Both the position numbers and the translations under genes were made by a program. From the IMG/VR virus record IMGVR_UViG_3300042365_000191, positions 1 to 32,672 of that record: a stretch of DNA of 32,672 nt. The stretch is one strand, 5' to 3'. Below, piece by piece: positions 4,170 to 32,479 of this stretch. Source of the stretch: a virus. Under the pieces are notes generated by a model that had not been told where the DNA came from, did not search any database, and saw only the letters and a program-made list of their open reading frames with translations. Within the stretch, counting starts at the first letter, position 1. Each line of letters opens with the position of its first letter.

Positions 4170-5534
4170 TCAGCCGAACTTGAGGGCCACGACCGGGCCG
4201 GCCTTGGTGGTCGAACCGAGGTCATGCACGACCATCGCGTTGCGGGTCGTCGCGAAGGTGAGCGTCTGGTCGAGCTCGATGTACCGCTCGCTCGCGGTGC
4301 GGATCGAGATGGCCCGACGCTCGCCGAACGTGGCCGCCTGCGACAGGTCGCCGAAGAGGCAAGCCACGCCGGCGGTGGTGCCCGTCAAGCGGGACTCCAT
4401 CGAGTGAACCAGCCGCACCGGGTAGCCGAGGAACCGCTCGCCGAACCCGGTCGCCACGTCGCTCGTGCTGTTCCCGCCAGGGCCGCTCGACCCGCCGGGC
4501 AGCATCGCGAGACGCAGCATCGCCGAGCCCCAGCCGGCCGGGCTGATGTAGAAGGCAGCGTTCCGGCGGGCGTAGAGCGGGAGCCGAGCGACCATGTCGG
4601 TGAAGTTCCCCATGGTCAGGGCACCGAAGGTCTGGTTGCTCGTCGCCGTCACGACCGACGCGGAGAAGGGCGACTTCACGATCTTCGTCGCGATGCCCTC
4701 GACACCGTGGTAGGCCGAGGTGCCGTCGCCGATGAAGCCCGCGTTGTCGAAGGCTTCGGCGTAAGCCTGGGCCACCTCGACCGCCATGGCGTCGGCCAGG
4801 TCGATGATCGAGTCTTCGAGCAGCGAGTTCGGAACGCGGTTCGCCACGCCCCAAATCTTCGCCGACAGTTCGATGTTGTCGAACGTCACGTCGCTGGCCG
4901 TCACCTCGACGTTCTCGCCGACCGGGCGAGCGGCAAGGCCACCCGTCCGACGGGCGATCACGAGCGTGTCGCTGTTCATGTTCACCCGGCGGGCGTACTG
5001 CGGGAACGCGCCGTACTCCTCGACCAGGCGGATGATCTCGTTGCTCATCTCGGGGGAGACGAGCACGCCGCCGAGCGAGTTGACACCGCCGGCCTGGACG
5101 CGGCTCTCGACGCCGTGATCCTTGCACCACCGCCGGGCTTCGGCATCGCCGAACACATGGCCCTTGATGTGCATTCCAGCACGGTACGCCGTCTCGGCAT
5201 CCTTGAACGCACGCAGATTGTTGTGCGACTTCGGCACGGCGTACTCTCGCTTCTCCACGGCAGTCTCCTTGACCTCGGGGGTGTCGATGGCCTTGGCGGG
5301 AGCGGAACGCTCCAGCACGGCCCGCAGTTCGGTGTTCTTCGCGGCGACCCGCTGCAGGAACTCGATCCGCTCGCGGAGCTTGTCGGCACGCTGCTCGAGC
5401 GAGCGGAGCGACGCCTCCTGCTCCTCGGTCATGGGCTCGGCGGCGGCATCGCCCTCGGGGGCGTCCTCGCTCATCGTCTCCATCTCGGCGACGACAGCGG
5501 CGAGCTCGTCCAGCAGAGCCTTGATCTTGTCCAC
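4170..5534 (-). CDS. HK97-fold major capsid protein with N-terminal scaffolding (delta) domain
   Basis: The 454-residue product is a fused scaffold-capsid protein. Residues about 1-75 are charged, acidic and coiled-coil (heptads such as L-R-S-L-E-Q-R-A-D-K-L), like the HK97 delta domain. The capsid core begins near residue 120 with G-G-V-N-S-L-G-G-V-L-V-S-P-E-M and continues with V-E-E-Y-G-A-F-P and a G-D-G-T-S-A-Y-H-G-V-E-G-I motif typical of the family. I start it at the GTG at 5534 because AGGAG lies eight bases upstream; a longer upstream frame has no good ribosome site. The upstream protease should remove the delta domain. It lies two genes after the portal and protease, the classic order. 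Confidence 0.93.
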   Translation of the reverse strand: MDKIKALLDELAAVVAEMETMSEDAPEGDAAAEPMTEEQEASLRSLEQRADKLRERIEFLQRVAAKNTELRAVLERSAPAKAIDTPEVKETAVEKREYAVPKSHNNLRAFKDAETAYRAGMHIKGHVFGDAEARRWCKDHGVESRVQAGGVNSLGGVLVSPEMSNEIIRLVEEYGAFPQYARRVNMNSDTLVIARRTGGLAARPVGENVEVTASDVTFDNIELSAKIWGVANRVPNSLLEDSIIDLADAMAVEVAQAYAEAFDNAGFIGDGTSAYHGVEGIATKIVKSPFSASVVTATSNQTFGALTMGNFTDMVARLPLYARRNAAFYISPAGWGSAMLRLAMLPGGSSGPGGNSTSDVATGFGERFLGYPVRLVHSMESRLTGTTAGVACLFGDLSQAATFGERRAISIRTASERYIELDQTLTFATTRNAMVVHDLGSTTKAGPVVALKFG

Positions 5535-5644
5535 GGCGGAATCTCCTAGTGCGATTCGTGGCGACGCGGACGCATCGCCTACGGTCGAAACTAGGGTTCG
5601 CGGGGGGCACCCATGCAGATGCACGAGCGCGGGCAGTAAAGAAC

Positions 5645-5815
5645 TCAGCCCGCCTTGACGCGGCGAATCTCAGCCGCTGGCAAGATGTGTTTGTCGGTGT
5701 TGCCGCACCGGCAGCGGAGGTAGCGGGTCTGGTAGTCGCCCGACCGCTGGCTCGATGCGACAACGAACTTTCCGCTCTTGCACAGCGGGCAGGAATCGCC
5801 GGATTTAGCGGCCAT
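5645..5815 (-). CDS. Small zinc-ribbon-like protein
   Basis: A 56-residue ORF starting M-A-A-K-S-G-D-S-C-P-L-C. It has one C-x-x-C knuckle (C9, C12) and a second cysteine pair C-R-C (C35, C37), the layout of a small zinc ribbon such as Com-type translational regulators, though the second pair has one residue between the cysteines rather than two. GAGGAAGC lies immediately before the ATG and the gene overlaps the end of the prohead protease by 11 bases, so it is probably coupled. Function unknown; placing a zinc ribbon between protease and capsid is uncommon. The 110 bases between its stop and the capsid start hold only the capsid ribosome site. Confidence 0.7.
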   Translation of the reverse strand: MAAKSGDSCPLCKSGKFVVASSQRSGDYQTRYLRCRCGNTDKHILPAAEIRRVKAG

Positions 5816-6821
5816 GCTTCCTCAGAACGTCACGGTAGAAAGCCGCACGGTTCGCGGCATATTCGCGGGCTTCGTCGTGCCGACGCTGCTCCTTGCGGAA
5901 GTGGTCGAATGACCGCTGGGCCACCGTCACGTCGGCATCGGGATACGCGGGAAACGTCACCGGACCCACGTCCAGCAGCGAGTCGATGCGGGTGATCGTC
6001 CGCACACTGCGGCCGTCCTCAATCGCCCACGCATCGCCGCCGCTCGGGACGGTGAAGCTGAACGACGAGCCTTTGACGATGCCCGCCCGAATGTTGCTGG
6101 CGATGTCCCGCCCGTAGGTAGTGTCGGGCACGGGGAACTCATATCGCAGCCCGACCTCGTCCACGCTCATCGACAGAGTGCCGGGATAGCGGGCGAGCGG
6201 GTAGTTCGCGTCGTGGTTCCAGAGGGCGCGAGTCTCTAGCGACTTCTTGCGGCCGCGCCGCTCGGAGACAATGCCGAAGGCAGCGGGGTCGATCCGCTCG
6301 ATGAAGTCGCCCAGGTCGAGCGAGTTCACGCCGAACTTCGCCGCGTAGCCGACGATGTATTCCCGCTCGCTGCCGTCCTCGGCGCTGCGGCTCTCGACCG
6401 CCAGAAGCGGCACCGCCGACTCCACCTCGTCAATCGCCAGACTGCGTCGCTCGATGTTCATAGTCGTGCTCCTTGCGTTCTCGTCCGCTGCGTTCATCTG
6501 CCGAACCAGTTTGCTTGACCACGCCTGCCCGGCGTCGCCGCCCCACAAACTCCAGGCGATCCTCCCGGCGGATGGCCAGCCGTCCTCACCGGGGCTCCAC
6601 CCTTCGCCCTGCTTGTCGATCTCGTGCCGGTCGAAATACGCCTTCATCCTGCGTGCCGTCTCTGGGCTGATCGTCGTGCCGTTGCTCAGGTCGCGTCCGC
6701 GGGCAACGCCGACTGCCGTGCCGCCGCGTCCGTACTCGCTTCGCCAATCGAGCCCCTTCTGTGCCTCACTCCGCACGCCAGCCGGGGGCGTGAAGTCGAT
6801 GTGGTCGTACCTAGCTGCCAC
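5805..6821 (-). CDS. Prohead maturation protease (S78 type) with an N-terminal accessory domain
   Basis: The 338-residue frame has two parts. Residues about 8-110 form a domain seen in front of many phage prohead proteases (G-R-G-G-T-A-V-G-V-A-R near 31-41, S-A-G-R-I-A-W-S-L-W-G-G-D near 84-96). Residues about 124-310 are the HK97-type S78 protease, with W-N-H-D (H203) and K-G-S-S-F-S-F (S252/S253) as the expected catalytic His and Ser. It should process the capsid scaffold domain. The GTG at 6821 has a GGGGCG ribosome site and overlaps the portal stop by 11 bases. A second strong site, AAGGAG about eight bases before an in-frame ATG at 6461 (codon 121), could give a protease-only product of about 218 residues. 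Confidence 0.88.
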   Translation of the reverse strand: MAARYDHIDFTPPAGVRSEAQKGLDWRSEYGRGGTAVGVARGRDLSNGTTISPETARRMKAYFDRHEIDKQGEGWSPGEDGWPSAGRIAWSLWGGDAGQAWSSKLVRQMNAADENARSTTMNIERRSLAIDEVESAVPLLAVESRSAEDGSEREYIVGYAAKFGVNSLDLGDFIERIDPAAFGIVSERRGRKKSLETRALWNHDANYPLARYPGTLSMSVDEVGLRYEFPVPDTTYGRDIASNIRAGIVKGSSFSFTVPSGGDAWAIEDGRSVRTITRIDSLLDVGPVTFPAYPDADVTVAQRSFDHFRKEQRRHDEAREYAANRAAFYRDVLRKHGR

Positions 6822-8676
6822 GCTTTCGCCCCTTCCGCTTCGGCTTGCCGTAGGCGTTCTCCTCGACCGGTGGCGGCTCGGGCAGCGGGTCGATCTTCGT
6901 GAGCGTTGCCACCTTGTGACCGACTTGCGTCTCGGTCGCACGCCACTCGCCGGCCACCTCTTCGTAGACCGTGATGAGGGCGGCAGGGTCGTCCTCGCTC
7001 GCCTCGATCTTGAAGTCGGTGCCTGGGATGTCGAGCGTGCCGTAGTCCATGACGTGGTCGATCCGCCCGCGAGCGCGACCGCCCGACGAATCCCACGAGA
7101 CGAAGTCGCCTTCCGACACGGTGCCAGGTTTGGCCCGATCCTCGGAGCGACCCGCCGGGGCGGCAGGCACCGGCTCGGTTTGCAGCGGCTGTGCATCGAC
7201 CGCTGCGGGTGCTGGCTGACGCTCCACCACCCCGGCAAGGATCGCCGCAATCTGTGCGGCATTCATGCTCGGGAACGCCGCAGCGACCATCGCAGCCGCA
7301 CCGTCCTTCGACACCAACCCATCGACCACCGACTGAATGATCGCAATGAGCCCCGTGATCTGAGCACCGTTCAGCGACACGTCGGCGACTTGCGGAGCCT
7401 CGGTCTCGACAGGCTCGCCCGGCGTCGCCGGCACCACCGGCTCGCCAGCCGCAGCGGCAAGCCCGCCCTCGACCGCCTGGCCGTCGATCTCGCTTCCCGG
7501 CTGCTGCTGGGCCAGCACGTCGCCCTCGCTCGGCTGCTCGCCCAGCGTGCCCATGTTCAGCGGGCGGTAGCGAACGTCGCCGCCCTCGACCGGGTCGAGG
7601 TTCTCGGTGGCGCGGATGTCGTTCGTCGAAACGACGCCGATGTCCCACATTGCCCGGTAGTACGCAGACCGGCTGGCGGCATCGCCACGCAGCAGTCCAC
7701 GCACGTCGAACTCGATCAGATAGCGGTCGTCTTCCGCGATGAGGTCGCGCATGAACGCCGACTCAAAACGCCGCAGCCACGGCATGATGCAATGCGTGAC
7801 GAACGCGATATCGCCATCCGGTGTCGCGGGGCCGATGCCAAGCAAATGCCCAGGCACGCGGAACAGACGGGCGATCTCCTCGAGCTGGTAGCGGCGCAGC
7901 TCGATGAACTGGCTGTCGGTATTGCTCGCCTGCGGAATGTCGTAGGGCTTCAATCCGCCGGTCAGCACCGCCGTGTTGTGAGCGTTGCCGACGCCGCCGT
8001 GCCGCCGGTCCCACTGCGACCGCAACGCCTCGCGGGCCTCCGCATTGAGTTGCCCATCGGTCGAGAGAACGAACCCAGGGCGGGCACCGGCAGCGAAGAA
8101 CCGCGCCCCGTGCAACTCGCACGCCCGAGCTAGTGCGATGGCGTCTTTGCACTCGGCGACCACGCTCATTCCGTTCACGCCGTCGTCGGACGGGCCGCGA
8201 ATCTGAAGGATCGCATCGTCGGCGTAGACGGTCTCGGTGCCCTTGTCCTCGCGGTACTTGTATCGCAGCTTGCCGTTCTCGATCCGCTCCACCTTCATCC
8301 GGCTCGGATGCAGCGGCACGATCTGCCCGGCCTTGAGTTCGTCAAATGCGTCGCCCCATAGCCCGACGTGGAACACCGACTGCTCACGCCACTCGAAGCT
8401 CGTCTGCCATCCGTTCGGCTGCGAGTGCAGTTGCCGATACAGCGGCAGTTCGCGGGCGATCCGCTTCCCGCCCCCAGCCGTCCGCTCCAGCACATGCAGG
8501 GGCAATCCCGCCACCGTCTCCGCAATCACCCGCAGGCAGGCGAACACCGCCGCGACCTGGTGAGCGTTGCTCTCGTCAATTCGCACGCCAGCGTTCGACC
8601 GGCTCGATGGCTCGTCGTCCCACATGCGGGACTCGCCAGGGAGCCAGAGGATGCGGTTGTCGGCGGGGGCGATCAT
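6811..8676 (-). CDS. HK97-family portal protein with a C-terminal Tudor-like extension
   Basis: The first ~380 residues are a typical HK97/SPP1-type portal. Recognisable pieces are H-Q-V-A-A-V-F-A-C-L-R-V-I-A-E-T-V-A-G-L-P (about 38-58), P-N-G-W-Q-T-S-F-E-W (about 86-95), a G-D-A-F segment, and R-R-Y-Q-L-E-E-I-A-R-L-F-R-V-P near 260-274. The portal is the DNA entry ring. A Pro/Ala/Glu-rich linker follows, then about residues 515-595 a small beta domain with G-D-F-V-S-W-D-S-S-G-G and D-D-P-A-A-L-I that matches HVA1/Tudor-like domains in pattern. The tail is strongly basic (G-K-P-K-R-K-G-R-K-R). ATG overlaps the terminase stop by ATGA. At 621 residues it is much longer than the usual 400-450. 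Confidence 0.92.
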   Translation of the reverse strand: MIAPADNRILWLPGESRMWDDEPSSRSNAGVRIDESNAHQVAAVFACLRVIAETVAGLPLHVLERTAGGGKRIARELPLYRQLHSQPNGWQTSFEWREQSVFHVGLWGDAFDELKAGQIVPLHPSRMKVERIENGKLRYKYREDKGTETVYADDAILQIRGPSDDGVNGMSVVAECKDAIALARACELHGARFFAAGARPGFVLSTDGQLNAEAREALRSQWDRRHGGVGNAHNTAVLTGGLKPYDIPQASNTDSQFIELRRYQLEEIARLFRVPGHLLGIGPATPDGDIAFVTHCIMPWLRRFESAFMRDLIAEDDRYLIEFDVRGLLRGDAASRSAYYRAMWDIGVVSTNDIRATENLDPVEGGDVRYRPLNMGTLGEQPSEGDVLAQQQPGSEIDGQAVEGGLAAAAGEPVVPATPGEPVETEAPQVADVSLNGAQITGLIAIIQSVVDGLVSKDGAAAMVAAAFPSMNAAQIAAILAGVVERQPAPAAVDAQPLQTEPVPAAPAGRSEDRAKPGTVSEGDFVSWDSSGGRARGRIDHVMDYGTLDIPGTDFKIEASEDDPAALITVYEEVAGEWRATETQVGHKVATLTKIDPLPEPPPVEENAYGKPKRKGRKRGS

Positions 8677-10304
8677 ATGAAGAAGATTTCAGGCGTACCG
8701 CTCGGCTGCTGCTCGGCACCCATCCACGCCGCGATTCCTTCGCAGCAGGCCACGATGCCGTCTATTCGCTCCGTGCTCTTCGCCTTGCTGGGGTAGATGT
8801 TGCCGTGCCGGTCCTCGGCCACCGCACAATTCGACGCATTCCACGAAAACACCGGCTGCCCGGCGTGCCGCACCTTGCCGGCCAGCACGAGGTTTTCCAG
8901 CGTCTTCAAGGGGGCCGACATGGCGCGCCCGCCTTGTGGATATCCAACCACGTCTACCCCATCCCCTTGCAGCATGTTCGCCAGCATCTGCCCGTTGAAC
9001 TTCAGATCCACGGCCAGGCGACGCACGTTGTACTGGCTGCAAATCGCCGCAATGTCACGGTGCAGAATCGTGTAGTCGGTGACGTTCCCGTCCGTGACTC
9101 GGATGTGCCCGTCACGAATCCACCCGAGGTAGTCCACCTTGTCGCGGTGCGACCGCTCGGCTGCGTTGCTCTCGGGAATCCAGAAGAACGGCAGGATGTC
9201 GAGCGAGTTGTCTTCCGGGTCGGGGCAGACGAGCACCAGGGCGGTGAGGTCATACGTGCTCGCAAGATCGAGCCCCGCGTACACCGGGCGGTCGCCGAAC
9301 TCGCGCAGCGGGCCGCCGCACGAAGCCCACGCATCCGGCTTGAAGAACCGCGTGTCTTGCGTCGTCCAGACGTTGAGCCTGTACCGCAGAAACGAGTTGA
9401 GCTTCGTCGGGCTCTGCTCCGCCTCACGGGCATCCGCCGCGAACGACTCCTCGGTGATCGTCTCCCCTAGCGACGGGTTGGCGATCCGCCAGACCTTCGG
9501 AGTCTTCCACGTTCCATCGGCCGCACACTCGGGCGGGGCCGCGTAGATGCACCCGTAGAACGATGGGTCGAACCCCGGATCTGCGATGCACTTCTCCGCG
9601 TAGGCGTGCTGCTCCCAGCAGATGCTCTTGCGGTCGAATCCCGCCGTCGTGATCGAGAGAATGAGCGGCTGCCGGCGAGCCGCGCCGCCGTATCGCAGGG
9701 CATCCCACAGCCGGCGGTCACGCTGGGCATGAAGCTCATCGAATAGCAGCATGTGGATGTTCAAGCCTTCCGCCCGAAACGCATCCGCCGACAGCACCCG
9801 ATAGAACGAGTTTGTCGCCTTGTGAATGATCGTCTTGCGCGAGTCGATCACCTCCAGCACCCGAGACAACGCGGGCGACGAGCGGACCATCGCCGCAGCC
9901 TCGCGGTAGATGATGCCCGCCTGCTCACGGTCTGCGGCGGCACCGTAAATCTCGGCACCTTGCTCGCCATCCGCGACAAGCCCATACAGGGCGATGCCCG
10001 CGAGGGTTGTGCTTTTGCCCTGCTTTTTGGGCAATTCGATGTACCCCACCCGCGCCTGCCGAGTCTTGTCGGGCTTCACCCGGCCGAAGATGTTGCCGAG
10101 CACGTTTTTCTGCCACGGCATCAGCGTGAATGGTTTGCCAGCCGTCTGCCCCTTGCTGTGCCGCAAGAGGCTCTCGAAGAAGTCAAAGACTTGAGCGGCT
10201 CGCCCCTCGTCAATCTCGGGGATGACGCCAGCCTTCTCAGCCGCCTTGATGGCGGGCGAAGAAATCTGCCAAGTCGTCGGCGGGCTTTTCTTGCTTCGTG
10301 CCAA
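8673..10304 (-). CDS. terL: Terminase large subunit
   Basis: The 543-residue protein has both terminase modules. The ATPase has a Walker A-like L-P-K-K-Q-G-K-S-T at about 91-99 and Walker B L-L-F-D-E-L-H at about 186-192 (D189, E190). The RNase H-like nuclease begins near A-G-L-D-L-A-S at about 343-349 with D346 as the first metal-binding aspartate, and a later V-D-L-K-F-N segment. It is the Terminase_1 type found with P27 small subunits, and it translocates and cuts genomic DNA during packaging. It starts at a TTG that lies 68 bases inside the end of the small subunit gene. The start is the least certain part; no ATG lies nearby in frame. Confidence 0.93.
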   Translation of the reverse strand: MARSKKSPPTTWQISSPAIKAAEKAGVIPEIDEGRAAQVFDFFESLLRHSKGQTAGKPFTLMPWQKNVLGNIFGRVKPDKTRQARVGYIELPKKQGKSTTLAGIALYGLVADGEQGAEIYGAAADREQAGIIYREAAAMVRSSPALSRVLEVIDSRKTIIHKATNSFYRVLSADAFRAEGLNIHMLLFDELHAQRDRRLWDALRYGGAARRQPLILSITTAGFDRKSICWEQHAYAEKCIADPGFDPSFYGCIYAAPPECAADGTWKTPKVWRIANPSLGETITEESFAADAREAEQSPTKLNSFLRYRLNVWTTQDTRFFKPDAWASCGGPLREFGDRPVYAGLDLASTYDLTALVLVCPDPEDNSLDILPFFWIPESNAAERSHRDKVDYLGWIRDGHIRVTDGNVTDYTILHRDIAAICSQYNVRRLAVDLKFNGQMLANMLQGDGVDVVGYPQGGRAMSAPLKTLENLVLAGKVRHAGQPVFSWNASNCAVAEDRHGNIYPSKAKSTERIDGIVACCEGIAAWMGAEQQPSGTPEIFFI

Positions 10305-10710
10305 GTCGCACCCTGGAGGAAGGCGTCAGCCCGAACTCGGTCATCAGCGACGCTTGCATGCTGACCAGCGCTTTGTACATCGGGCCGGCAGGGTTCTGTT
10401 TCACGCCGCCAAGGTTGGTCCGCATCACTGGGCCGCTGGCCCGAAGTTCGAGCAGGCAAGCTTGTGCCGCAGCGTACACCTCGCATAAAGTCGCAAGAGC
10501 CTCGCCGTCGCCGGTCGTGAGCACGTTCATGCCGAGCAAGACCGGAACCAGTTCCTCCCACTTCGCCACGGCGAGCGGTTCAACTCGGAGACGTTCCGGC
10601 ATCGGCGGCGATCCGGCGGGAGCCGAAGGCTCCCGCTTGACAGGCCCGCGTTGCGTGCCTTGGAGGATCTTGATTGCGGTCGGCTTGGGCCTGCGGCCTC
10701 GCGTCGCCAT
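10237..10710 (-). CDS. terS: Terminase small subunit, P27 family
   Basis: The 157-residue product opens with R-G-R-R-P-K-P-T-A-I-K-I-L-Q-G-T, the standard N terminus of P27-type small terminases, followed by P-P-M-P and A-K-W-E-E-L-V-P-V-L (about 48-57), also typical. It ends in the usual basic, helical C-terminal stretch. The protein recognises the packaging site and regulates the large subunit. Order HNH - small - large terminase is a common arrangement in cos-type phages. No clear Shine-Dalgarno precedes the ATG. Confidence 0.9.
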   Translation of the reverse strand: MATRGRRPKPTAIKILQGTQRGPVKREPSAPAGSPPMPERLRVEPLAVAKWEELVPVLLGMNVLTTGDGEALATLCEVYAAAQACLLELRASGPVMRTNLGGVKQNPAGPMYKALVSMQASLMTEFGLTPSSRVRLGTKQEKPADDLADFFARHQGG

Positions 10711-11167: not shown

Positions 11168-12154
11168 TCACACCAGGATAGATCCAGCCAGGGCTTCTCT
11201 TGCAGCAAGCCTCGAGTCCGCGTCCACCATCATCCGCACCAAGGCATGGAAGCCTGTGCGAGGTCGCCAGCCAAGCAGCTCGGCGGCAACGCTGGCATCC
11301 GCCTGGAGCACGTCAACCTCGGCCGGGCGGTAGTACCTCGGGTCGATCTCGACGTGGTCACGGTAGTCGAGCCCAGCATGGGCGAACGCCGCTTCGCAGA
11401 ACTCCCGCACGGTATGCGTCTCGCCCGTGCCGATGACGTACTCGCGTGGCTCACCTTGCTGGAGCATGAGCCACATGGCCTCGACATAGTCGCCAGCGAA
11501 GCCCCAGTCTCGCCGAGCATCGAGGTTGCCGAGGTAGAGTTTTTCCTGAAGCCCGTGCTTGATTCGCCCGACCGCCCGCGTGATCTTGCGGGTCACGAAC
11601 GTCTCGCCACGTCGCGGGCTCTCGTGGTTGAACAGGATGCCGCACGAGGCGTGAAGTCCATAAGACTCGCGGTAGTTGATCGCGGTCGCGTGGGCGAACA
11701 GTTTCGCGCAAGCGTAGGGCGATCGTGGGTGGAACGGCGTGGCCTCGCTCTGCGGGGCAGGGGCGTTGCCAAACAGTTCGCTGCTCGACGCCTGATAGAA
11801 CCTCGCCTGCGGCGCGTGGTCGCGGATCGCCTCAAGCATCCGCAGGCAGCCGAGCCCAGTGGCGTCGGCCGTGTAGGTCGGCTGGTCGAACGACACGCGG
11901 ACGTGGCTCTGGGCGGCGAGGTTGTAGACCTCGTCTGGCTGGACCTCGCGGACAATGCGGGCCATCGCGCCGCCGTCGCACACGTCGCCGTGGTGGAGGT
12001 GGAGTCGCTCGAACTCGTGATCGATGCGGCCCGTGTTGAACGTGCTGGCTCGCCGCACGACGCCATGCACCTCGTAGCCCTTCGCGAGCAGGAACTCGGC
12101 GAGGTAGGAGCCGTCCTGGCCCGTGATGCCGGTGATCAGAGCGCGACGCTGCAT
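11168..12154 (-). CDS. gmd: GDP-mannose 4,6-dehydratase
   Basis: The 328-residue enzyme has the NADP-binding G-I-T-G-Q-D-G (9-15), the L-A-A-Q-S-H-V segment (79-85), an S-S-S-E-L-F-G catalytic loop (123-129), Y147-x-x-x-K151 (S-P-Y-A-C-A-K), and N-H-E-S-P-R-R-G (176-183), a very specific Gmd motif. It converts GDP-D-mannose to GDP-4-keto-6-deoxymannose. It is nearly full length for the family (about 340-370). ATG 12154 follows GGAAAG and overlaps fcl by 19 bases; an ATG five codons upstream is possible. With fcl it forms the two-step GDP-L-fucose pathway. Confidence 0.95.
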
Positions 12155-13047
12155 CGTTCTTTCCACCATGCGACTGTCTCGCGGATGCCGTCCTCCAGGC
12201 TTACTCGGGGCGTCCAGCCGAGCAGGCTCGCGGCCCGCGACGCATCGACGGCTCGGCGTGGCTGGCCATTCGGCATCGAATCGTTCCAGTAGACTGCGCC
12301 GGCAAATCCGCATGCGTCGGCGACCATGTCGGCAAGCCGCCGCATGGTCACTTCTCCGCCGCCGCCCAGGTTGATCGGCTCGGCGTCGCTGATCGTTTCT
12401 CCAGCCGCGACGATGCCGGCCGCCGCGTCGTCAACGTGAAGGAACTCGCGTGACGCGGAGCCGTCGCCCCACAAGACCACATCGCGTCCATCGCAGAACT
12501 TGCGAATCATCGCCGGGATGACGTGGCTCGACGCCGGGTCGAAGTTGTCGCCCGGGCCGTAGAGGTTCGTCGGGATCACGACCGCGCCGGCCATGCCGTA
12601 CTGCCTGTTGTACTGCTTGAGCAATTCGTAGACGGCTCGCTTCGCTACGCCATAGCCGGCGTTCGTCTCTTCCGGGTAGCCGCTCCAGAGGTCGCCCTCG
12701 GCGAACGGCGGCCTGCAGAACTTCGGGTAGGAGCAGACCGTGCCGACGACGACGACCTTCTCGACGCCGTGGATGCGGGCCTGCTCAATGACGTTGAGCC
12801 CCATCGCGAGGTTGGCGTAGGTGAATCGCCCTGGCTGGGCCATGTTCGCGCCGATGCCGCCGACCTCGGCCGCGAGGTGGTAGACCACGCAAGGTTTCGC
12901 TGCCGCGAAATACTCTGCCGTCGCGGCGGCGTCAGTCAGGTCGCAGCCCCATCGTCGTGGTCGCAGCACGTCGTGGCCCGCCGCCTCAAGGAGCCGGCAG
13001 ACGCGACGGCCGAGGAATCCGTTGCCGCCGGTGACGAGTGTCGTCAA
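12136..13047 (-). CDS. fcl: GDP-L-fucose synthase
   Basis: The 303-residue short-chain dehydrogenase has G-G-N-G-F-L-G (7-13) for [14 protein letters not shown] (56-65), G-T-V-C-S-Y-P (102-108, with C105 matching the catalytic cysteine of E. coli WcaG), Y132-x-x-x-K136, and S-S-H-V-I-P-A, whose His matches the other catalytic residue. It epimerises and reduces GDP-4-keto-6-deoxymannose to GDP-L-fucose. The start is a TTG overlapping the upstream stop as TTGA. No ATG near the Rossmann motif is in frame, so this start is needed to keep the first strand. Confidence 0.93.
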
Positions 13048-13361
13048 GGCTCGACCTCGTCTCTCGGCAGCATCGCCACTGCATCGCCCCACGGAATGAC
13101 CTCGACGCTGGCGAGCAACACGGCCTTGTCTGCCGATTGCCACATGGCGTGCAGCATCCCGCCGGGCATCACCTCGGTGAGCAGGTCAGCCGAGAGCATC
13201 AACCGCCCGTCTGTCATCACTCGCGGCACCGGAACGCATGCCGGATGGCCGTGGACCGCGTGCAGTTCGGCCAGCCTCGCGGCGAGGGCCGGCGTGAATA
13301 CGAGCGCGTACTGTTTCGCGTCGTCGTAGGAGATCGGAAGCGACAGTTCGCCGAGTGTCAT
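13044..13361 (-). CDS. Hypothetical protein of the tail/fibre region
   Basis: A 105-residue protein starting M-T-L-G-E-L-S-L-P-I-S-Y-D-D-A-K. It is mixed alpha/beta with a V-F-T-P-A-L-A-A-R-L-A-E-L helix and a V-P-R-V-M-T-D-G-R-L-M-L-S hairpin. No catalytic or metal motif is seen. ATG overlaps the upstream stop by ATGA. Its position between structural proteins and the sugar genes suggests an accessory virion or assembly role, which is inference. Confidence 0.7.
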   Translation of the reverse strand: MTLGELSLPISYDDAKQYALVFTPALAARLAELHAVHGHPACVPVPRVMTDGRLMLSADLLTEVMPGGMLHAMWQSADKAVLLASVEVIPWGDAVAMLPRDEVEP

Positions 13362-22386: not shown

Positions 22387-22796
22387 GAGATCCGCACGGT
22401 CGTCCGTGCCTCCGTGCCCCACGTCTTCTCGATCACGACCTTGCCGATCTGCACGTCGTCCTTCCAGGCCACGCCATTGAGCGAGTCCTCGATGCCCTTG
22501 GCGTAGTTCGTGCAGTCGCCTCGCGGCACCGGCCTGGCCGACCTCGGGTTGAGCTCGCCGCTCTTCCGGTAGTGCGACGGTGGCCGAGCGAACACCAGGT
22601 CGATGACGACCGTCAGCGGGGCGTCGTCGATCGGCGTGGCCCCCGCAGCTCGAGCAGCTGCAGCAATCGCAGCCCGGTAGGCGTGAATCGGGTGCGACGC
22701 CGGCGTGTATGCGTGGCCGTGTTTGCCGCGCGTCGTGATGCGTGGCCTTGGCTGCGGCACGGGGTCGCCGACTACCTCGAACGCGATTGGTCGCAT
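22383..22796 (-). CDS. rusA: RusA-type Holliday junction resolvase
   Basis: A 137-residue nuclease with V-V-G-D-P-V-P-Q-P-R-P-R near 8-19 (typical RusA opening), and the catalytic block D94-C-T-N-Y-A-K100-G-I-E-D104-S-L-N-G with D113/D114 after it. RusA dimers cut four-way junctions, and phages use them for recombination and for resolving branched DNA before packaging. It starts inside the end of the serine protease gene (25-base overlap) with no clear ribosome site. Along with the RecT-type protein it completes a recombination pair. Confidence 0.92.
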   Translation of the reverse strand: MRPIAFEVVGDPVPQPRPRITTRGKHGHAYTPASHPIHAYRAAIAAAARAAGATPIDDAPLTVVIDLVFARPPSHYRKSGELNPRSARPVPRGDCTNYAKGIEDSLNGVAWKDDVQIGKVVIEKTWGTEARTTVRIS

Positions 22797-23560
22797 GCCA
22801 GGACGCTACACGTCGCGTCAAACTCTTCGCCCATCACCTCGTGATACCAATCGTGGTACAGGCTCACCCGCGTGTGGGCGGACTCTTCGCCGGCCCTGCT
22901 GCGAGTGCGTGTGCCATCTGCGGTCTTCATCGTGAAGCTGTTGATGCCTGCGAGACGCTGGTGAACGAAGAGCGGCCCGCCCGAATCGCCAGGTGCGATG
23001 CACAGCGGCAGCGGCGATCCGCCACGCATGGCCGGCAACACGATCAGCCCATGCTCAAAGCGGACGATCTTGCCCGTGCCTGCCCGAAGGGCCCCGTCGC
23101 CGTGCGTGTGCCCCGTCGAGAGCCTGCCGGTCAACCCGTAGCCAGCAACGCTGACCGTGTCTCCTATCGCTTCCTCGCCGCTCGACAGGGGCGGGTATGA
23201 CCGGAGGCCGAATGGTTCGGCAACCCGCACCAGGGCGATGTCGTGCCACCCGTAGTTGCCGTCTTGGTACTCGCGGTGGGCGAAGATCCGCTCCACCCGC
23301 CGGATGCCGTTGGCCGTGTGAACGATTGCCTTGGCGTAGCCCTCGACGACGTGGGCCGCCGTCAGGGCCCAGTGATCGGCGATCAGCACGCAGCTGCCGC
23401 AGGGCATCGTCCCGTCTGGCAGTGTGCCGATGATCTTGGCCGTGTACGGGGCGAAGTCTCGGCCGTACTCGAGGTAGCGGGCGTCGGGTATAGCGTCGTC
23501 GGTCGTGCCCGCGAAGGCCGACGACGCCCAGCACAGAAGGAAAATTCCCAGTGCCCGCAT
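22772..23560 (-). CDS. Secreted trypsin-like (S1) serine protease
   Basis: The 262-residue product has a clear signal peptide (residues about 1-17, cleavage after A-F-A) and the full chymotrypsin-like triad: H70 in L-T-A-A-H-V-V, D107 in W-H-D-I-A-L, and S193 in P-G-D-S-G-G-P-L. C54/C57 lie close to the N-terminal strand. This would act outside the cytoplasmic membrane. Such a complete exported S1 protease is not usual in phage genomes; it may be a host-derived cargo gene, a lysis or superinfection factor, or an envelope-modifying enzyme. ATG 23560 has no clear Shine-Dalgarno. Confidence 0.87.
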   Translation of the reverse strand: MRALGIFLLCWASSAFAGTTDDAIPDARYLEYGRDFAPYTAKIIGTLPDGTMPCGSCVLIADHWALTAAHVVEGYAKAIVHTANGIRRVERIFAHREYQDGNYGWHDIALVRVAEPFGLRSYPPLSSGEEAIGDTVSVAGYGLTGRLSTGHTHGDGALRAGTGKIVRFEHGLIVLPAMRGGSPLPLCIAPGDSGGPLFVHQRLAGINSFTMKTADGTRTRSRAGEESAHTRVSLYHDWYHEVMGEEFDATCSVLACDQSRSR

Positions 23561-23606: not shown

Positions 23607-23810
23607 CTATATGTCGAGGAGCTCGCCCGGAATCATCTGGCGGATCGTCTCTGCCAGCCGTCGCTCCTCTGCGGTCGGCTCGCCGTGCTTGCACAGGTAA
23701 CGGCAGTGCTGGTCGATCTGCCAGAGCACCTGTCTCGCTTCACTGCCCAGCCTCGCAGAGTCGTACTCGGCCTGGTCGTCTGGCAGCGTGAATTGCAGTG
23801 TCGCCTTCAT
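23607..23810 (-). CDS. Small phage protein, paralogue of the protein at 27490-27702
   Basis: A 67-residue protein. M-K-A-T-L-Q-F-T-L-P-D-D-Q-A-E lines up with M-K-A-K-L-T-F-T-L-P-D-D-E-A-E of the 27490-27702 product, and both continue with an L-x-x-I helix, K-x-G-E and end in M-I-P-x-E-L. Proteins with this F-x-L-P-[DE] start are common in phage early regions; no function is known to me. I start it at the ATG that aligns with the paralogue rather than a longer GTG frame. The 148-base gap before it contains AT-rich -10-like hexamers but no clear promoter. Confidence 0.78.
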   Translation of the reverse strand: MKATLQFTLPDDQAEYDSARLGSEARQVLWQIDQHCRYLCKHGEPTAEERRLAETIRQMIPGELLDI

Positions 23811-23958
23811 GACACTTTTCGTCAGTTTGTGTGTAGTCGCGCTATCCGTGCTTCGTAACAGCGGGCCGCCGCGTCTCACGGCCGTGCGGCGCGAATCGCC
23901 GGGGCGTTATACAGCAGGGTGGCGATTATCCGGGTCCGTATAAACACTGGTTCTGTTT

Positions 23959-24303
23959 CTAACCCTCGGCCGTAGCGAGCAGTCCGTCGTGCCGAAACGA
24001 CATGATCGGAATGTCCATCCCGATCTGGCGGGCTGCCTCCAAAACGTCTTCGGCCCTGTAGTACCGCTCGCCGTCAATGACGACGCCACTGCAAATCGGA
24101 AACCGCTCCGGCTTGCGGTGTTCCACGGGCCGCTCTCGGCCCTGCTCGGCGATCCACGCCTCGAGGTCTTCCAGCTTGTACCTCACAGACTTCCCGAGCT
24201 TCGTCGTTTGCGGCCCCTTGCGAAGCCATGCGTAGCGGGCGAGGGTCTGCGGTGCAAACCCAAGGTACTCGGCCGCCTGCTTCCTGGTCATCAGTCGTTC
24301 CAT
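23959..24303 (-). CDS. Excisionase/AlpA-type HTH regulator
   Basis: A 114-residue protein with an N-terminal HTH_17 domain: L-M-T-R-K-Q-A-A-E-Y-L-G-F-A-P-Q-T-L-A-R (4-23), the wing K-L-G-K-S-V-R-Y-K-L-E-D-L-E-A-W-I (35-51). This winged HTH is shared by phage excisionases and AlpA-like activators. The C-terminal half (Y-R-A-E-D-V-L-E-A-A-R-Q) looks like a second small helical piece. AAAGGAG eight bases before ATG 24303 sets the start. No integrase is in the window, so excisionase function is unproven; a transcription factor is equally likely. Confidence 0.83.
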   Translation of the reverse strand: MERLMTRKQAAEYLGFAPQTLARYAWLRKGPQTTKLGKSVRYKLEDLEAWIAEQGRERPVEHRKPERFPICSGVVIDGERYYRAEDVLEAARQIGMDIPIMSFRHDGLLATAEG

Positions 24304-24329
24304 CGCATCGTCTCCTTTGGTGCTGCGTG

Positions 24330-24358
24330 AATCCTGTCGCAACGTAGCGGCCTGTCAA
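24330..24358 (-). promoter_or_regulatory. Candidate sigma-70-like promoter of the HTH gene
   Basis: On the minus strand TTGACA (24358-24353) is a perfect -35 hexamer, followed after 16-17 bases by a weak -10 (CAGGAT/AGGATT, about 24336-24330). It lies 27 bases upstream of the HTH start. A perfect -35 with a weak -10 suggests activator or repressor control. Confidence 0.45.
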
Positions 24359-24400
24359 TCGCTCGCCAAAGATTCAACCAGCGTCAATCAGCGTCAATCA
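24353..24400. repeat. Triple GATTGAC direct repeats overlapping the promoter
   Basis: GTCAATC (plus strand) occurs at 24354-24360, 24383-24389 and 24393-24399; the last two are in a perfect 10-base tandem repeat (GCGTCAATCA twice, 24381-24400). The first copy contains the -35 hexamer of the candidate promoter. The arrangement is that of operator or activator sites for a DNA-binding protein, most simply the HTH protein encoded just downstream. Confidence 0.6.
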
Positions 24401-24412
24401 GTGTGGCCCGAA

Positions 24413-24468
24413 ACAGAACCAGCGGATGAAGCGGACGGCAGGGCCGCCGCTTATCCTGCGTGTTATGC
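24413..24468 (+). other. attC-like recombination site 1 (cassette left boundary)
   Basis: Read on the plus strand: ACAGAAC (R''-like), nine bases, AAGCGGAC (L''-like), a short centre, GCCGCTT (L'-like), eight bases, then GTTATGC (R'-like). The arms pair fully as GGAT-AAGCGG-CGGC against GCCG-CCGCTT-ATCC, leaving only G24428 and A24435 extrahelical, both in the left arm. Unequal 9/8 spacers and two extrahelical bases in the left arm are the defining layout of integron attC sites. The expected cut is between G24462 and T24463. Confidence 0.72.
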
Positions 24469-24684
24469 CGTCTCCGTCTTGTCTGTCGCGCACATCAGCC
24501 AATCAACGTCCCCGTCGTTGAACGCCACGACTTCAAACGATCCGTGCCTGTCTTCATGCGAAATCGACATTCCGTGCTTGCGGCACACCTCAATCACCTC
24601 CGAGAGAAACGAATCGACGACGGCGTTTTCAACGTCTCCGACGTACTTATACGGCCACTCGCTTTGGCATTTGCCCCTCAACAT
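24463..24684 (-). CDS. Small acidic phage-type protein carried in the putative cassette
   Basis: A 73-residue acidic protein. The central part V-D-S-F-L-S-E-V-I-E-V-C-R-K-H-G-M, then S-I-S-H-E-D-R-H-G-S-F-E-V-V, resembles a small family I know from many phages (K-x-G-x-S-I-S-H-E-D-x-H-G-A-F), ending in D-W-L-M. Function is not known. AAAGGAGGA sits nine bases before the ATG at 24684, clearly better than any upstream start. Its TAA stop overlaps the left cassette junction, as the first codon-sized part of R'. The whole gene and its ribosome site fit inside the cassette. Confidence 0.76.
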   Translation of the reverse strand: MLRGKCQSEWPYKYVGDVENAVVDSFLSEVIEVCRKHGMSISHEDRHGSFEVVAFNDGDVDWLMCATDKTETA

Positions 24685-24788
24685 CTTGTCCTCCTTTGCG
24701 ATTGGCATAACCACGCGATGCAGCGGACCCGCGAGAGCGTCGGTAGGTTTGTTCATGGTCGTAGGTCGCGGGCCGCTGATCGCTGGCG
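24463..24788. mobile_element. Putative integron-type gene cassette, 326 bp
   Basis: The unit starts at TTATGCC (after the R' G of attC-like site 1) and ends at the R' G of attC-like site 2. The R'' of site 2 (GGCATAAC, 24704-24711) is the exact reverse complement of GTTATGCC across the left junction (24462-24469). In integrons the two ends of one cassette must match this way, because they are joined in the free circle, so this is the strongest sign of a real cassette. It holds one gene (24463-24684) on the minus strand, opposite to the usual gene orientation relative to attC, together with its own Shine-Dalgarno. Confidence 0.62.
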
Positions 24789-24794
24789 TTCTCA
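24704..24794 (+). other. attC-like recombination site 2 (cassette right boundary)
   Basis: Plus-strand layout: GGCATAAC (R''), nine bases CACGCGATG, CAGCGGAC (L''), an extended stem CCGCGA/TCGCGG around a 31-base loop, GCCGCTG (L'), eight bases ATCGCTGG, and GTTCTCA (R'). Arms GCGAT-CAGCGG-CCCGCGA pair with TCGCGGG-CCGCTG-ATCGC, leaving G24720 and A24727 extrahelical in the left arm, the same two positions as in site 1. At 91 bases it is within the usual attC size range. Expected cut between G24788 and T24789. Confidence 0.75.
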
Positions 24795-24938
24795 GCCTCG
24801 TGCCGCCATGTAGAGCCCGATGTTCGCAGCCGCGTACCCGGCGTAGGCGATGGCGAGCCCGTGCTTGCCATGCCACGCCAGGTCGCCGGCCACCCAGACG
24901 TAGATCACGCCAGTAAGAGCGATTAGCCAGGGTGCCAT
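24792..24938 (-). CDS. Small two-helix membrane protein
   Basis: A 48-residue ORF, M-A-P-W-L-I-A-L-T-G-V-I-Y-V-W-V-A, then a polar turn (D-L-A-W-H-G-K-H-G) and a second hydrophobic helix (A-I-A-Y-A-G-Y-A-A-A-N-I-G-L-Y). It is probably an inner-membrane protein with two segments and a short loop. The ATG lies three bases after the stop of the secreted protein gene, with GGTGACGC as a weak ribosome site, so it is likely coupled. Its TGA falls in the R' end of attC-like site 2. Function unknown. Confidence 0.65.
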   Translation of the reverse strand: MAPWLIALTGVIYVWVAGDLAWHGKHGLAIAYAGYAAANIGLYMAARG

Positions 24939-24941
24939 GCG

Positions 24942-25244
24942 TCACCGATACCGAATGACAGCGAACCACTGGCGACGCACCGGCGAGTATGCCACGCCCT
25001 CCTCGACGATCGGCCGCTGGCCGAAGAAGCAGCACGCCCGCCTTGCGGCCTCCGGCGTCGAACCGCATCCGATGCCCTCGCGTCGTCCACCGTTGCGGCC
25101 ACAGTGCCGCAAAATGCCCGTGCGGGCCATTTCCTCAGCGTCGTCCTGGGCCGAGCCAAACACGACCTTACGGGCGTAGATCGTCGTGTCGGCCGTGACC
25201 GTGACAGCGACGCAGGACAACACGAGAGCGAGCAGGAACCTCAT
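24942..25244 (-). CDS. Small exported cysteine-containing protein
   Basis: A 100-residue protein with a signal peptide (M-R-F-L-L-A-L-V-L-S-C-V-A-V-T-V-T-A-D, cleavage near residue 19). The mature part has four cysteines (about 48, 60, 71, 72), giving room for disulfides, and ends in R-R-Q-W-F-A-V-I-R-Y-R. GGAGGAT before ATG 25244 is a strong ribosome site. I do not recognise a family. A periplasmic or surface role during infection, such as superinfection exclusion, is possible but not shown. Confidence 0.75.
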   Translation of the reverse strand: MRFLLALVLSCVAVTVTADTTIYARKVVFGSAQDDAEEMARTGILRHCGRNGGRREGIGCGSTPEAARRACCFFGQRPIVEEGVAYSPVRRQWFAVIRYR

Positions 25245-25306
25245 GGCGAATCCTCCGTGACTCGGCCGCGACGGGCGGCCGCATGTGAATCACGGTAGGT
25301 GGGGCG

Positions 25307-25624
25307 TCAAGTTGCCAGCCGTTCCAGCAGCCCCCGCAGCGTGGCGGCGCGCTTGTTCGCTACCGGCACGTTGTGCGGGCCGTCGATCTTGGAAAAAAAC
25401 CTGACCGCCTCCCGCTCCTCGTCGGTGAGCGTGAACGGCGTCAGCGTGCAGTATCGCGTCACGGTGCCGGTGACGTATGGGCAGGGCTGCGACCGCAGCC
25501 GCTCCACCTCGCCGGCCGCCGCTTCCAACTGCAATCGCCAGTCCTCGCCTATCCGCTGCACGGCAGCCACGGCGTCGTCGCCGCCGTTGCGGATGCGGAT
25601 GTCGAGTTCCTTCATGTATCCCAT
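25307..25624 (-). CDS. Hypothetical protein beside attC-like site 3
   Basis: A 105-residue protein. The N-terminal part is helical and coiled-coil-like (W-R-L-Q-L-E-A-A-A-G-E-V-E-R-L-R). The C-terminal part, L-T-D-E-E-R-E-A-V-R-F-F and A-A-T-L-R-G-L-L-E-R-L, is a motif pair I have seen in small phage proteins of unknown role. AAAGGAGAGACG before ATG 25624 sets the start; a second ATG three codons later is possible. The gene starts 19 bases after the attC-like site, so its ribosome site, but not a promoter, lies between. Confidence 0.72.
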   Translation of the reverse strand: MGYMKELDIRIRNGGDDAVAAVQRIGEDWRLQLEAAAGEVERLRSQPCPYVTGTVTRYCTLTPFTLTDEEREAVRFFSKIDGPHNVPVANKRAATLRGLLERLAT

Positions 25625-25642
25625 CGTCTCTCCTTTACGCCC

Positions 25643-25691
25643 ACATAACCACGCGATGCAGCGGACGAGCCGCTGATCGCTGGCGTTTTCT
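25643..25691 (+). other. attC-like recombination site 3
   Basis: Plus strand: ACATAAC, CACGCGATG, CAGCGGAC, a two-base centre, GCCGCTG, ATCGCTGG, then GTTTTCT. The left block of 22 bases and the right block of 19 bases are identical to site 2, while the 50-base centre of site 2 is absent, so the two are close relatives with different loops. Extrahelical G25658 and A25665 occupy the same positions. At about 49 bases it is near or below the usual lower size limit. Its R'' (GCCCACATAAC) has no matching start in the window, so the left end of its cassette is lost, diverged or elsewhere. Confidence 0.65.
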
Positions 25692-25898
25692 TACTGAATG
25701 GAAAAATGCCCCCGTCCCATCGTCGCCGAGCCGTTGTCGGGCTGCGTACGCCTAGAGGCTCCGAGCGGAAGGCCAAACGACTCGTAGGGCGCGAGCCGAC
25801 CTGCCGCCGGGTGTTCCATTTCGCGATTATTGCCCGTGAAGCAATGTGCCCGAAATAGGCCACCCTCTCGCCGCGATGTCTGTGCTTCGCCATCCGCC

Positions 25899-27384: not shown

Positions 27385-27493
27385 GTCGCGCTTCCTTTTT
27401 CCTGAGAGAACAACCAACCAGAATCCCGAGGGCGAACGTCGCCGCCAGGACTATTTCGCCGATTGCCATAAGCACCAGGTCGTGGACGGTCAT
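27311..27493 (-). CDS. Small single-pass membrane protein overlapping dnaN
   Basis: A 60-residue protein. M-T-V-H-D-L-V-L-M-A-I-G-E-I-V-L-A-A-T-F-A-L-G-I is one membrane helix (about 6-28), followed by S-L-R-K-K and a polar tail that lies in the overlap with dnaN (74 bases, different frame). The ATG is coupled to the upstream stop by ATGA. Overlap of this length with a conserved gene makes the C terminus constrained. Function unknown. Confidence 0.6.
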   Translation of the reverse strand: MTVHDLVLMAIGEIVLAATFALGILVGCSLRKKEARHGDCNEDEDGRYHAGRGHAEGGSG

Positions 27494-27702
27494 CGCAGTT
27501 TCTCCGTCAGTTCGTGCGGGATCATGTCGCGCCTGAGCTGCTCGAGCACCTTGCGCACGTCGTCGGTGATCTCGCCGTACTTCACGAGCTCACGCGCCCA
27601 ATTGTTGATTCGTTCCAGGGCGATGAGCGCATCACGCCCGGCGAGGGCGTACTGGAATTCCGCCTCGTCGTCGGGCAGCGTGAATGTCAACTTCGCCTTC
27701 AC
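27490..27702 (-). CDS. Small phage protein, paralogue of the protein at 23607-23810
   Basis: A 70-residue protein, M-K-A-K-L-T-F-T-L-P-D-D-E-A-E-F, with a helix I-A-L-E-R-I-N-N-W-A-R-E-L-V-K-Y-G-E and the terminal D-M-I-P-H-E-L. It matches the 23607-23810 product along its whole length. ATG overlaps the upstream stop (ATGA). The family is frequent in phage replication regions without a known function. Confidence 0.78.
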   Translation of the reverse strand: MKAKLTFTLPDDEAEFQYALAGRDALIALERINNWARELVKYGEITDDVRKVLEQLRRDMIPHELTEKLR

Positions 27703-31313: not shown

Positions 31314-31597
31314 CTCGCCACCTCGTGCTGCTGAATCAGTGCGCGCAGCCTACAAATGTCCTCGTCGTTGTCCGCATTGCTCGCCGGGTCCGAACGCTCG
31401 CTGGCGTTCGACTCGGCGATAGCAAGCTCGCGCCGCAGCACGTTGAGGCCGTGCTCGCGGTCGCGCAGCTGCCGCAAGTACGGAAGTGCTTGATCGACCA
31501 AGGCGCGAAACACGCCACCACGCTCATGCCAGTCGTCGCGGGCAAGTTCAAGGTCTGCAATAGTCAGGATCGCATCGAGATGTCGTGCCGCACTCAT
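31310..31597 (-). CDS. Small helical hypothetical protein
   Basis: A 95-residue helical protein starting M-S-A-A-R-H-L-D-A-I-L-T-I, with a D-W-H-E-R-G-G-V-F-R-A-L segment, and a C-terminal acidic stretch (D-N-D-E-D-I-C-R-L-R-A-L). ATG overlaps the recT stop by ATGA, so it is coupled to it. It could be an accessory of the annealing protein, which is speculation; no motif is seen. Confidence 0.66.
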   Translation of the reverse strand: MSAARHLDAILTIADLELARDDWHERGGVFRALVDQALPYLRQLRDREHGLNVLRRELAIAESNASERSDPASNADNDEDICRLRALIQQHEVAR

Positions 31598-32454
31598 GTC
31601 GTCACCTCGTGCTGGGCGGCCTCGTGGGCGAACTCCTGTCCACGGTCCTCGGGCACGGACGACAGGATGTCGAGTTTGCCGTTGATGAGCAGGAACAACT
31701 CGTCGGCCTGCGCCGGCGTGTAGAAGCCGCTCTTGAGCCGCTGCTCGACGATTCCCTGCATCCGCTCGAGCTGCCCGGCCGTCGCCGTCTGGACGTGGTG
31801 CCTGGCCTTCTGCATGTCCTCGGCTGTCGCGGTGGTCGCCTGGGCCGCCGTCTGGATCTCGGGCCGGTGCGTGGTGGGCGCGTCGAACTTGGGCCGCACG
31901 ACGATGGGCTCCGATGCCGGCGTGTCTGCTATTTCGTCCGGGTCATAGATCCCGACGGCACCCTCCCAGCCCACGCTCTTGAGCCCGGCCGTGATCGCAC
32001 GACTGCGGAGCATCGCCTTCGGGTGCTTGGCGTAGTTGTCGTTTGAAGCCAGGCCGGCACGCTTCGCGTCCTCGATCGTGAACGTCTCGGTGTGCTCGTC
32101 ACCGTTCGGGTGCTTGAGCACCAGCACGGCCTTCGTCTCGGTCAGTTCCTTGAACACCGCCCTCCCGCCGGCGCTCTTGAACCGTGCCAGCTGCGAGTCG
32201 GCCCGCTCGGTAACGGTGCCCTTGATGACCTGGAGCTTGCGGCAGGCAGCCATCGTGCCCATGCCCATCTCGCGGCCCATCAGCACAATCGCAGCAAACG
32301 AAACGCCGTCCTTGATGTGCGACGGGAGGAAGCCCGTTCGACGCAGCTGATCGCCCATCGTCACCAGTGAGCCAAAGTCGGCTGCGTCGTTGCTTCGCTC
32401 GGCGAGGGCCGTCCCCCTCGCGGGCTGCGTGTGTGTGGAAATCTCCGTCGTCAT
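31594..32454 (-). CDS. recT: RecT-type single-strand annealing protein
   Basis: The 286-residue protein has a RecT-like core over about 30-175: G-F-L-P-S-H-I-K (41-48), S-F-A-A-I-V-L-M-G-R-E-M-G-M (52-65), V-I-K-G-T-V-T-E-R-A-D (76-86), then P-K-A-M-L-R-S-R-A-I-T-A-G-L-K (145-159) and G-I-Y-D-P-D-E-I (168-175), which is the conserved end of the RecT domain. It anneals complementary strands in recombination or replication restart. The rest is a charged, low-complexity tail. AAAGGACG before ATG 32454 sets the start; the longer frame starting from a GTG is the leader. No phage exonuclease partner is seen in the window. Confidence 0.87.
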   Translation of the reverse strand: MTTEISTHTQPARGTALAERSNDAADFGSLVTMGDQLRRTGFLPSHIKDGVSFAAIVLMGREMGMGTMAACRKLQVIKGTVTERADSQLARFKSAGGRAVFKELTETKAVLVLKHPNGDEHTETFTIEDAKRAGLASNDNYAKHPKAMLRSRAITAGLKSVGWEGAVGIYDPDEIADTPASEPIVVRPKFDAPTTHRPEIQTAAQATTATAEDMQKARHHVQTATAGQLERMQGIVEQRLKSGFYTPAQADELFLLINGKLDILSSVPEDRGQEFAHEAAQHEVTT

Positions 32455-32479
32455 CTGTCCGCGTCCTTTCGTAGTGGAA

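Follow-up and report, generated by a model that had tools for sequence, protein, structure and literature searches.

The window, by which is meant the whole stretch of DNA that was analysed, is the 32.7-kb IMG/VR virus record IMGVR_UViG_3300042365_000191. Genes for capsid, protease, portal and both terminases, together with RusA, a primosomal protein, a RecT-like protein and a beta clamp, identify the contig as that of a tailed phage, and its recognised phage genes lie on the minus strand. Within it stands an attI-like site followed by an array with three attC sites and no intI nearby; two or more attC sites with no intI close by are termed a CALIN. The features are as follows.

4170-10710, minus strand: head and packaging module (major capsid, protease, portal, TerL, TerS; PHROGs matches to 1.8e-153)
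23845-23950, plus strand: attI-like site at the array head, matched by the profile; cassettes start at G23950|T23951
23951-24462, plus strand: cassette 1 (body and attC1), with 13-bp matching ends GTTCTGTTTC / GAAACAGAAC
23959-24303, minus strand: HTH_17/excisionase-like gene of cassette 1 (Pfam PF12728, 6.7e-11), antiparallel to the attC
24414-24469, plus strand: attC1, R'' CAGAAC ... R' GTTATGCC; z -3.4 for the fold of 24410-24471
24463-24788, plus strand: cassette 2, a 326-bp unit with 8-bp matching ends and G|TT at either border
24463-24684, minus strand: 73-aa gene of cassette 2, an ORF with a ribosome site and a TAA stop inside the left junction
24704-24795, plus strand: attC2; fold z -3.1
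24789-25689, plus strand: remnant or fused cassette region (TM gene 24792-24938, 100-aa gene, 105-aa gene, attC3)
25641-25694, plus strand: attC3; fold z -3.6; kept at the same position in the relative L171
31594-32460, minus strand: RecT-like annealing protein (phrog_4171, 1.3e-14)

The cassette array of the phage contig

The preliminary description had drawn a single intact cassette from T24463 through G24788, and these borders are right. The left junction GTTATGCC (24462-24469) and the R'' of the unit's own attC, GGCATAAC (24704-24711), are exact reverse complements at 8/8 positions. Taken by itself this match is modest, since the five bases past AAC would agree by chance about once in 1,000 cases, but it is made secure by the family as a whole: of 105 cassettes delimited by two successive attC sites, matching ends of at least 7 bp occur in 75, against about 14 expected with shuffled partners. 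attC2 folds on the bottom strand (z -3.1, with no shuffled sequence equally good), and three extra bases on the L'' side, C, G and A, fix its orientation; a bottom-strand fold is found in all three attC sites, with z from -3.1 to -3.6. The count of one cassette was too low, since an intact cassette (23951-24462) and the attI-like site precede the unit and a remnant follows it.

Also borne out was the account of the gene inside, which is antiparallel and has its own ribosome site, AAAGGAGGACAAG, ahead of the ATG at 24684. The frame is open further back, to an ATG within attC2 (MNKPTDALAGPLHRVV...). Its 73-aa product has no Pfam, PADLOC or PHROG match; relatives of the gene occur in two other contigs (L033 and L044, 74-76% DNA identity), each beside an attC. 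Expression of this gene from the phage operon is plausible, because the recognised phage genes of the window are on the same minus strand. The boundary rule, the attC structure, mobility between contigs and the attI-like site at the array head support the proposed integron-cassette reading, and 24463-24788 is a real integron-type cassette, the second of its array. Transfer as a unit is seen for cassette 1 and many others, and for cassette 2 itself in the form of the 74-76% gene relatives. The empty site that would join 24462 to 24789 was sought in the compared relatives and no exact case was found: L171, L138 and L143 are without the array, and L172, L137 and L136 have other cassettes.

The body of cassette 1 recurs in L030 with 463 of 466 positions identical. 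L030 is itself a phage contig, but its TerL shares only 39% identity with that of the window, and apart from this cassette it has no long DNA match to the window. The identity starts exactly at G|TT and stops within the L'' arm just past R'', so the attC stem differs between the two contigs. The scanned cassette proteins, which include the L030 copy of the HTH gene, give a match to HTH_17 (4.7e-11), and one member matches the phrog_66 excisionase/regulator (4.5e-11). A near-identical copy of attC1 is present in the integron of a planctomycete genome (G001, see below). The region 24789-25689 has mismatched ends, GTTCTCAG versus CACATAAC, with a matching length of only 3, and from 24941 onward it is retained in L171. 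This relative, part of the same contig as L070 (TerL 98.9%), keeps attC3, but attI and cassettes 1 and 2 are absent from it; another, L172, carries in the same place an attI, one different cassette encoding a DNA methyltransferase, and an attC.

Elsewhere in the window, two ORFs at 11168-13143 resemble by eye the sugar-nucleotide genes for GDP-mannose dehydratase and GDP-fucose synthase. A trypsin-like protease gene (also by eye) at 22772-23560 adjoins the array and has only two relatives in IMG/VR, and the variable region is flanked by two small genes, 23607-23810 and 27490-27702, with similar products (MKATLQFTLPDDQAEY.. / MKAKLTFTLPDDEAEF..).

Sites and cassettes in related virus records

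The attC 21-mer TAACCACGCGATGCAGCGGAC occurs in 48 IMG/VR stretches, its partner arm nearly always following. The array region had no DNA match among 50,697 phage records and 72,556 plasmid records from public collections. A structural attC detector found 171 sites in the 1.74 Mb of fetched loci and 0 in shuffled sequence, the largest array (L009) having up to 14. The exact junctions and the transfer of cassettes led us to reject the reading of these hairpins as mere terminators or regulatory elements. The virus records are mostly fragments whose completeness is not established; of 44 that bear attC, TerL was found in 15 and a portal in 13, and about two thirds have neither of these two searched families, so that phage status is established for part of the set only. 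An integron integrase over the curated cut-off was found in 0 of these 44 mostly fragmentary records, the window being likewise negative; four records have weak matches below the cut-off, of a kind that control genomes show as well. As no intI was found in these records, the phage locus is not a complete integron, though the genomes may carry one outside the fragments.

The attI-like element is about 105 bp long. Its profile matches about 26 virus contigs, immediately ahead of the first cassette; wherever attC sites were detected in these contigs, the element precedes the first of them and its orientation is constant. Its conservation stops at ...AAACACTGG|TT, beyond which about 25 different first cassettes follow, and related phage backbones are alike up to the G|TT of attI and divergent after it. 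In L267 and L278 one and the same cassette (250 nt, 100%) follows attI alleles with 69% identity, and in L267 and L018 one and the same 45-nt attI is followed by unrelated cassettes. Such patterns mark the element as the probable primary insertion site at the head of the array. One virus contig (IMGVR_UViG_3300042301_003480, 60.6 kb, with L267 and L277) has two different attI-like sites, each with an array. The array heads of L029 and L037 agree fully over the final 45-46 nt of attI and are unrelated further upstream, as though the attI core itself had moved.

Cassette genes usually read toward their own attC, although this is not obligatory, and those of the phage cassettes are antiparallel. 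Of 93 cassettes whose ends match, 91 have an antiparallel ORF ending near the left junction, 69 of them with stop offsets of 1, 4 or 9 nt, distances that arise because TAA, TGA or TAG is built into the junction or stands beside it. The attC of 41 cassettes contains a ribosome site and an ATG, and in 31 of these the gene is in frame with that start codon, compared with 47% when bodies are random. The methyltransferase frame of L172 likewise opens at an ATG within its attC, which suggests that attC can act as the translation start of a cassette gene. As the genes end at the left junction and have their starts within or next to their own attC, the phage operon could read the array and an integron promoter would be unneeded. 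Most cassette products are without a recognised family; those that have one include a Mom-like DNA modification protein, N6_N4 and Dam-like methylases, a PAPS reductase/SspD-like protein, HTH regulators and DUF551 proteins. The cargo appears to consist of putative phage accessory functions, namely DNA modification, regulators and small proteins without an assigned role.

The planctomycete counterpart

Among GTDB genomes an attC 20-mer of this type was found in only five contigs, all of planctomycete MAGs, and all 5 of the examined planctomycete genomes with phage-type attC (G001-G004 and G242) carry an integron integrase over the cut-off, which in G001-G004 shares a contig with attC in three cases. 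Integron integrases are present in 76 of the 248 genomes of their class. In planctomycete integrons attI adjoins the 3' end of intI. A weight matrix built from phage attI sites only was run on 834 GTT sites, drawn from planctomycete intI flanks and one G242 array head that has no intI nearby, and its best five were the attI positions of G242 (two), G004, G003 and G001, with scores between 5 and 11, where the background reached at most -1.3; all the genomes holding them are carriers of phage-type attC. At the array head at the C6 end of G242 (L282) a phage-type first cassette follows the host attI-like site, with no intI within about 19 kb upstream, and the contig ends inside the array.

Cassettes are shared as well. 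Three in G242 match phage cassettes at 98.5, 94.4 and 90.4%, and in this genome host-type attC accompany genes of mostly canonical direction, whereas phage-type attC accompany antiparallel genes. The cassette next to intI and attI in G001, the first of its array, opens with GTTCTGTGGCTACTTG, a recurrent start of phage cassettes, and bears the attC1-like site. A TerL of the window's type was not found in the candidate hosts, except for a 33% relative in G001. The phage family probably infects Planctomycetes, a host link that is based on MAGs.

Proposed movement of cassettes and its significance

The locus is most likely a phage integron without intI, an attI-type site with an attC-bounded array, for which host IntI probably acts in trans. 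According to the proposed cycle the host enzyme, in a planctomycete cell whose chromosome carries an integron, would bind the folded bottom strand of attC on the phage DNA and cut at G|TT, and would thereby shift cassettes between phage attI and attC sites and the host array, while the phage operon would read the cassette genes from the attI-distal side. The sequences themselves show the anatomy, the exact junctions, cassettes common to unrelated phages and to host genomes, no intI in the searched records, and likeness to host attI; the part of host IntI as catalyst, its action during infection and the role of the cargo are inferred. Site-specific recombination is supported by the G|TT junctions, by attI and by transfer of body plus attC. 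A wider proposal, which we hold to be somewhat likelier than its negation, is that of a widespread phage lineage with its own attI and array and no integrase, in which host IntI acting in trans trades anti-defence cassettes with host integrons and attC supplies the ribosome site and start codon for many cassette genes.

An alternative dispenses with integrase altogether: a phage RecT-like protein would anneal the roughly 20-nt identical attC arms, shuffling would be mainly homologous, and the attC sites would be hitch-hiking remnants. The window does encode a RecT (31594-32460). Near-identical cassette pairs lose identity inside attC past the shared L'' arm, and not at R', in about half of cases; about a dozen pairs diverge in this way, among them the HTH cassette, which has another attC in L030. 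In L136 and L137 the array is joined to the backbone at microhomology; at L136:7440-7610 the array end is fused into the 3' part of a TM gene at a short common GCGT, with attC and gene truncated. In unrelated contexts, however, the left breakpoints of shared cassettes coincide with G|TT (0 or -1), identity through body and attC as far as the GTT is seen in about a dozen pairs, the switch at the G|TT of attI is fixed without homology across it, and the phage attI resembles that of the host, all of which makes shuffling by homology an unlikely main process. The breakpoints inside attC and the microhomology fusions nevertheless imply that arrays are remodelled by homologous or annealing recombination as well. 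Site-specific recombination and this second process probably both act on them; the RecT-like protein of the phage is a candidate for the latter and possibly a helper in array rearrangement.

It is very improbable that the arrays are dead relics, pieces of host integrons (CALINs) once copied by phages and now immobile and vertically inherited. The searched phage records are indeed without intI, and attC3 with 24789-25689 looks degenerate, attC3 being inherited in place, but near-identical cassettes occur in unrelated phages and hosts (99.4%, 98.5%) and near-identical backbones have different first cassettes. Least credible of all is an assembly chimera of phage contigs with host integron arrays: the contigs are metagenomic and repeats favour misjoins, yet the same attI-array layout recurs in many contigs from independent samples, and phage cassettes differ in orientation from those of host type.

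Integrons are chiefly known as bacterial gene-capture devices, and phage copies have been reported as rare fragments. Integrons and CALINs in bacteriophage genomes, with phage attC that recombine with attI1 by IntI1, were described by Qi et al. 2023 (PMC9892861), and those phages resemble the present family in their attC arrays without integrase and in DNA methyltransferase cargo; the family described here differs in that a large group of uncultured phages has an attI-like array head and no intI, in its antiparallel genes, and in the cassettes that it has in common with planctomycete integrons. The sedentary chromosomal integrons of Planctomycetes share the attC arms GATGCAGCGGAC / GCCGCTGATC and the attI sequence, whereas the phage copies are without intI and the host-type cassettes are mostly canonical where the phage-type are antiparallel. 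The atypical Treponema integron (PMC3607928) also has a non-canonical layout, with intI and cassette genes reading the same way, but it is on a bacterial chromosome and has intI. As far as the open-access literature shows, attI without intI across a phage group and direct sharing of cassettes with planctomycete integrons are new, as are antiparallel cassettes, junction-borne stops and possible attC-borne starts.

If this reading is correct, a phage group carries a permanent locus of acceptor site plus array and seemingly depends on a host enzyme for its use. Phage arrays are a possible source of many uncharacterised small cassette genes, and the trans action of IntI on infecting phage DNA becomes a testable question. 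Phage integrons would offer a route for phage genes into chromosomal integrons and back.
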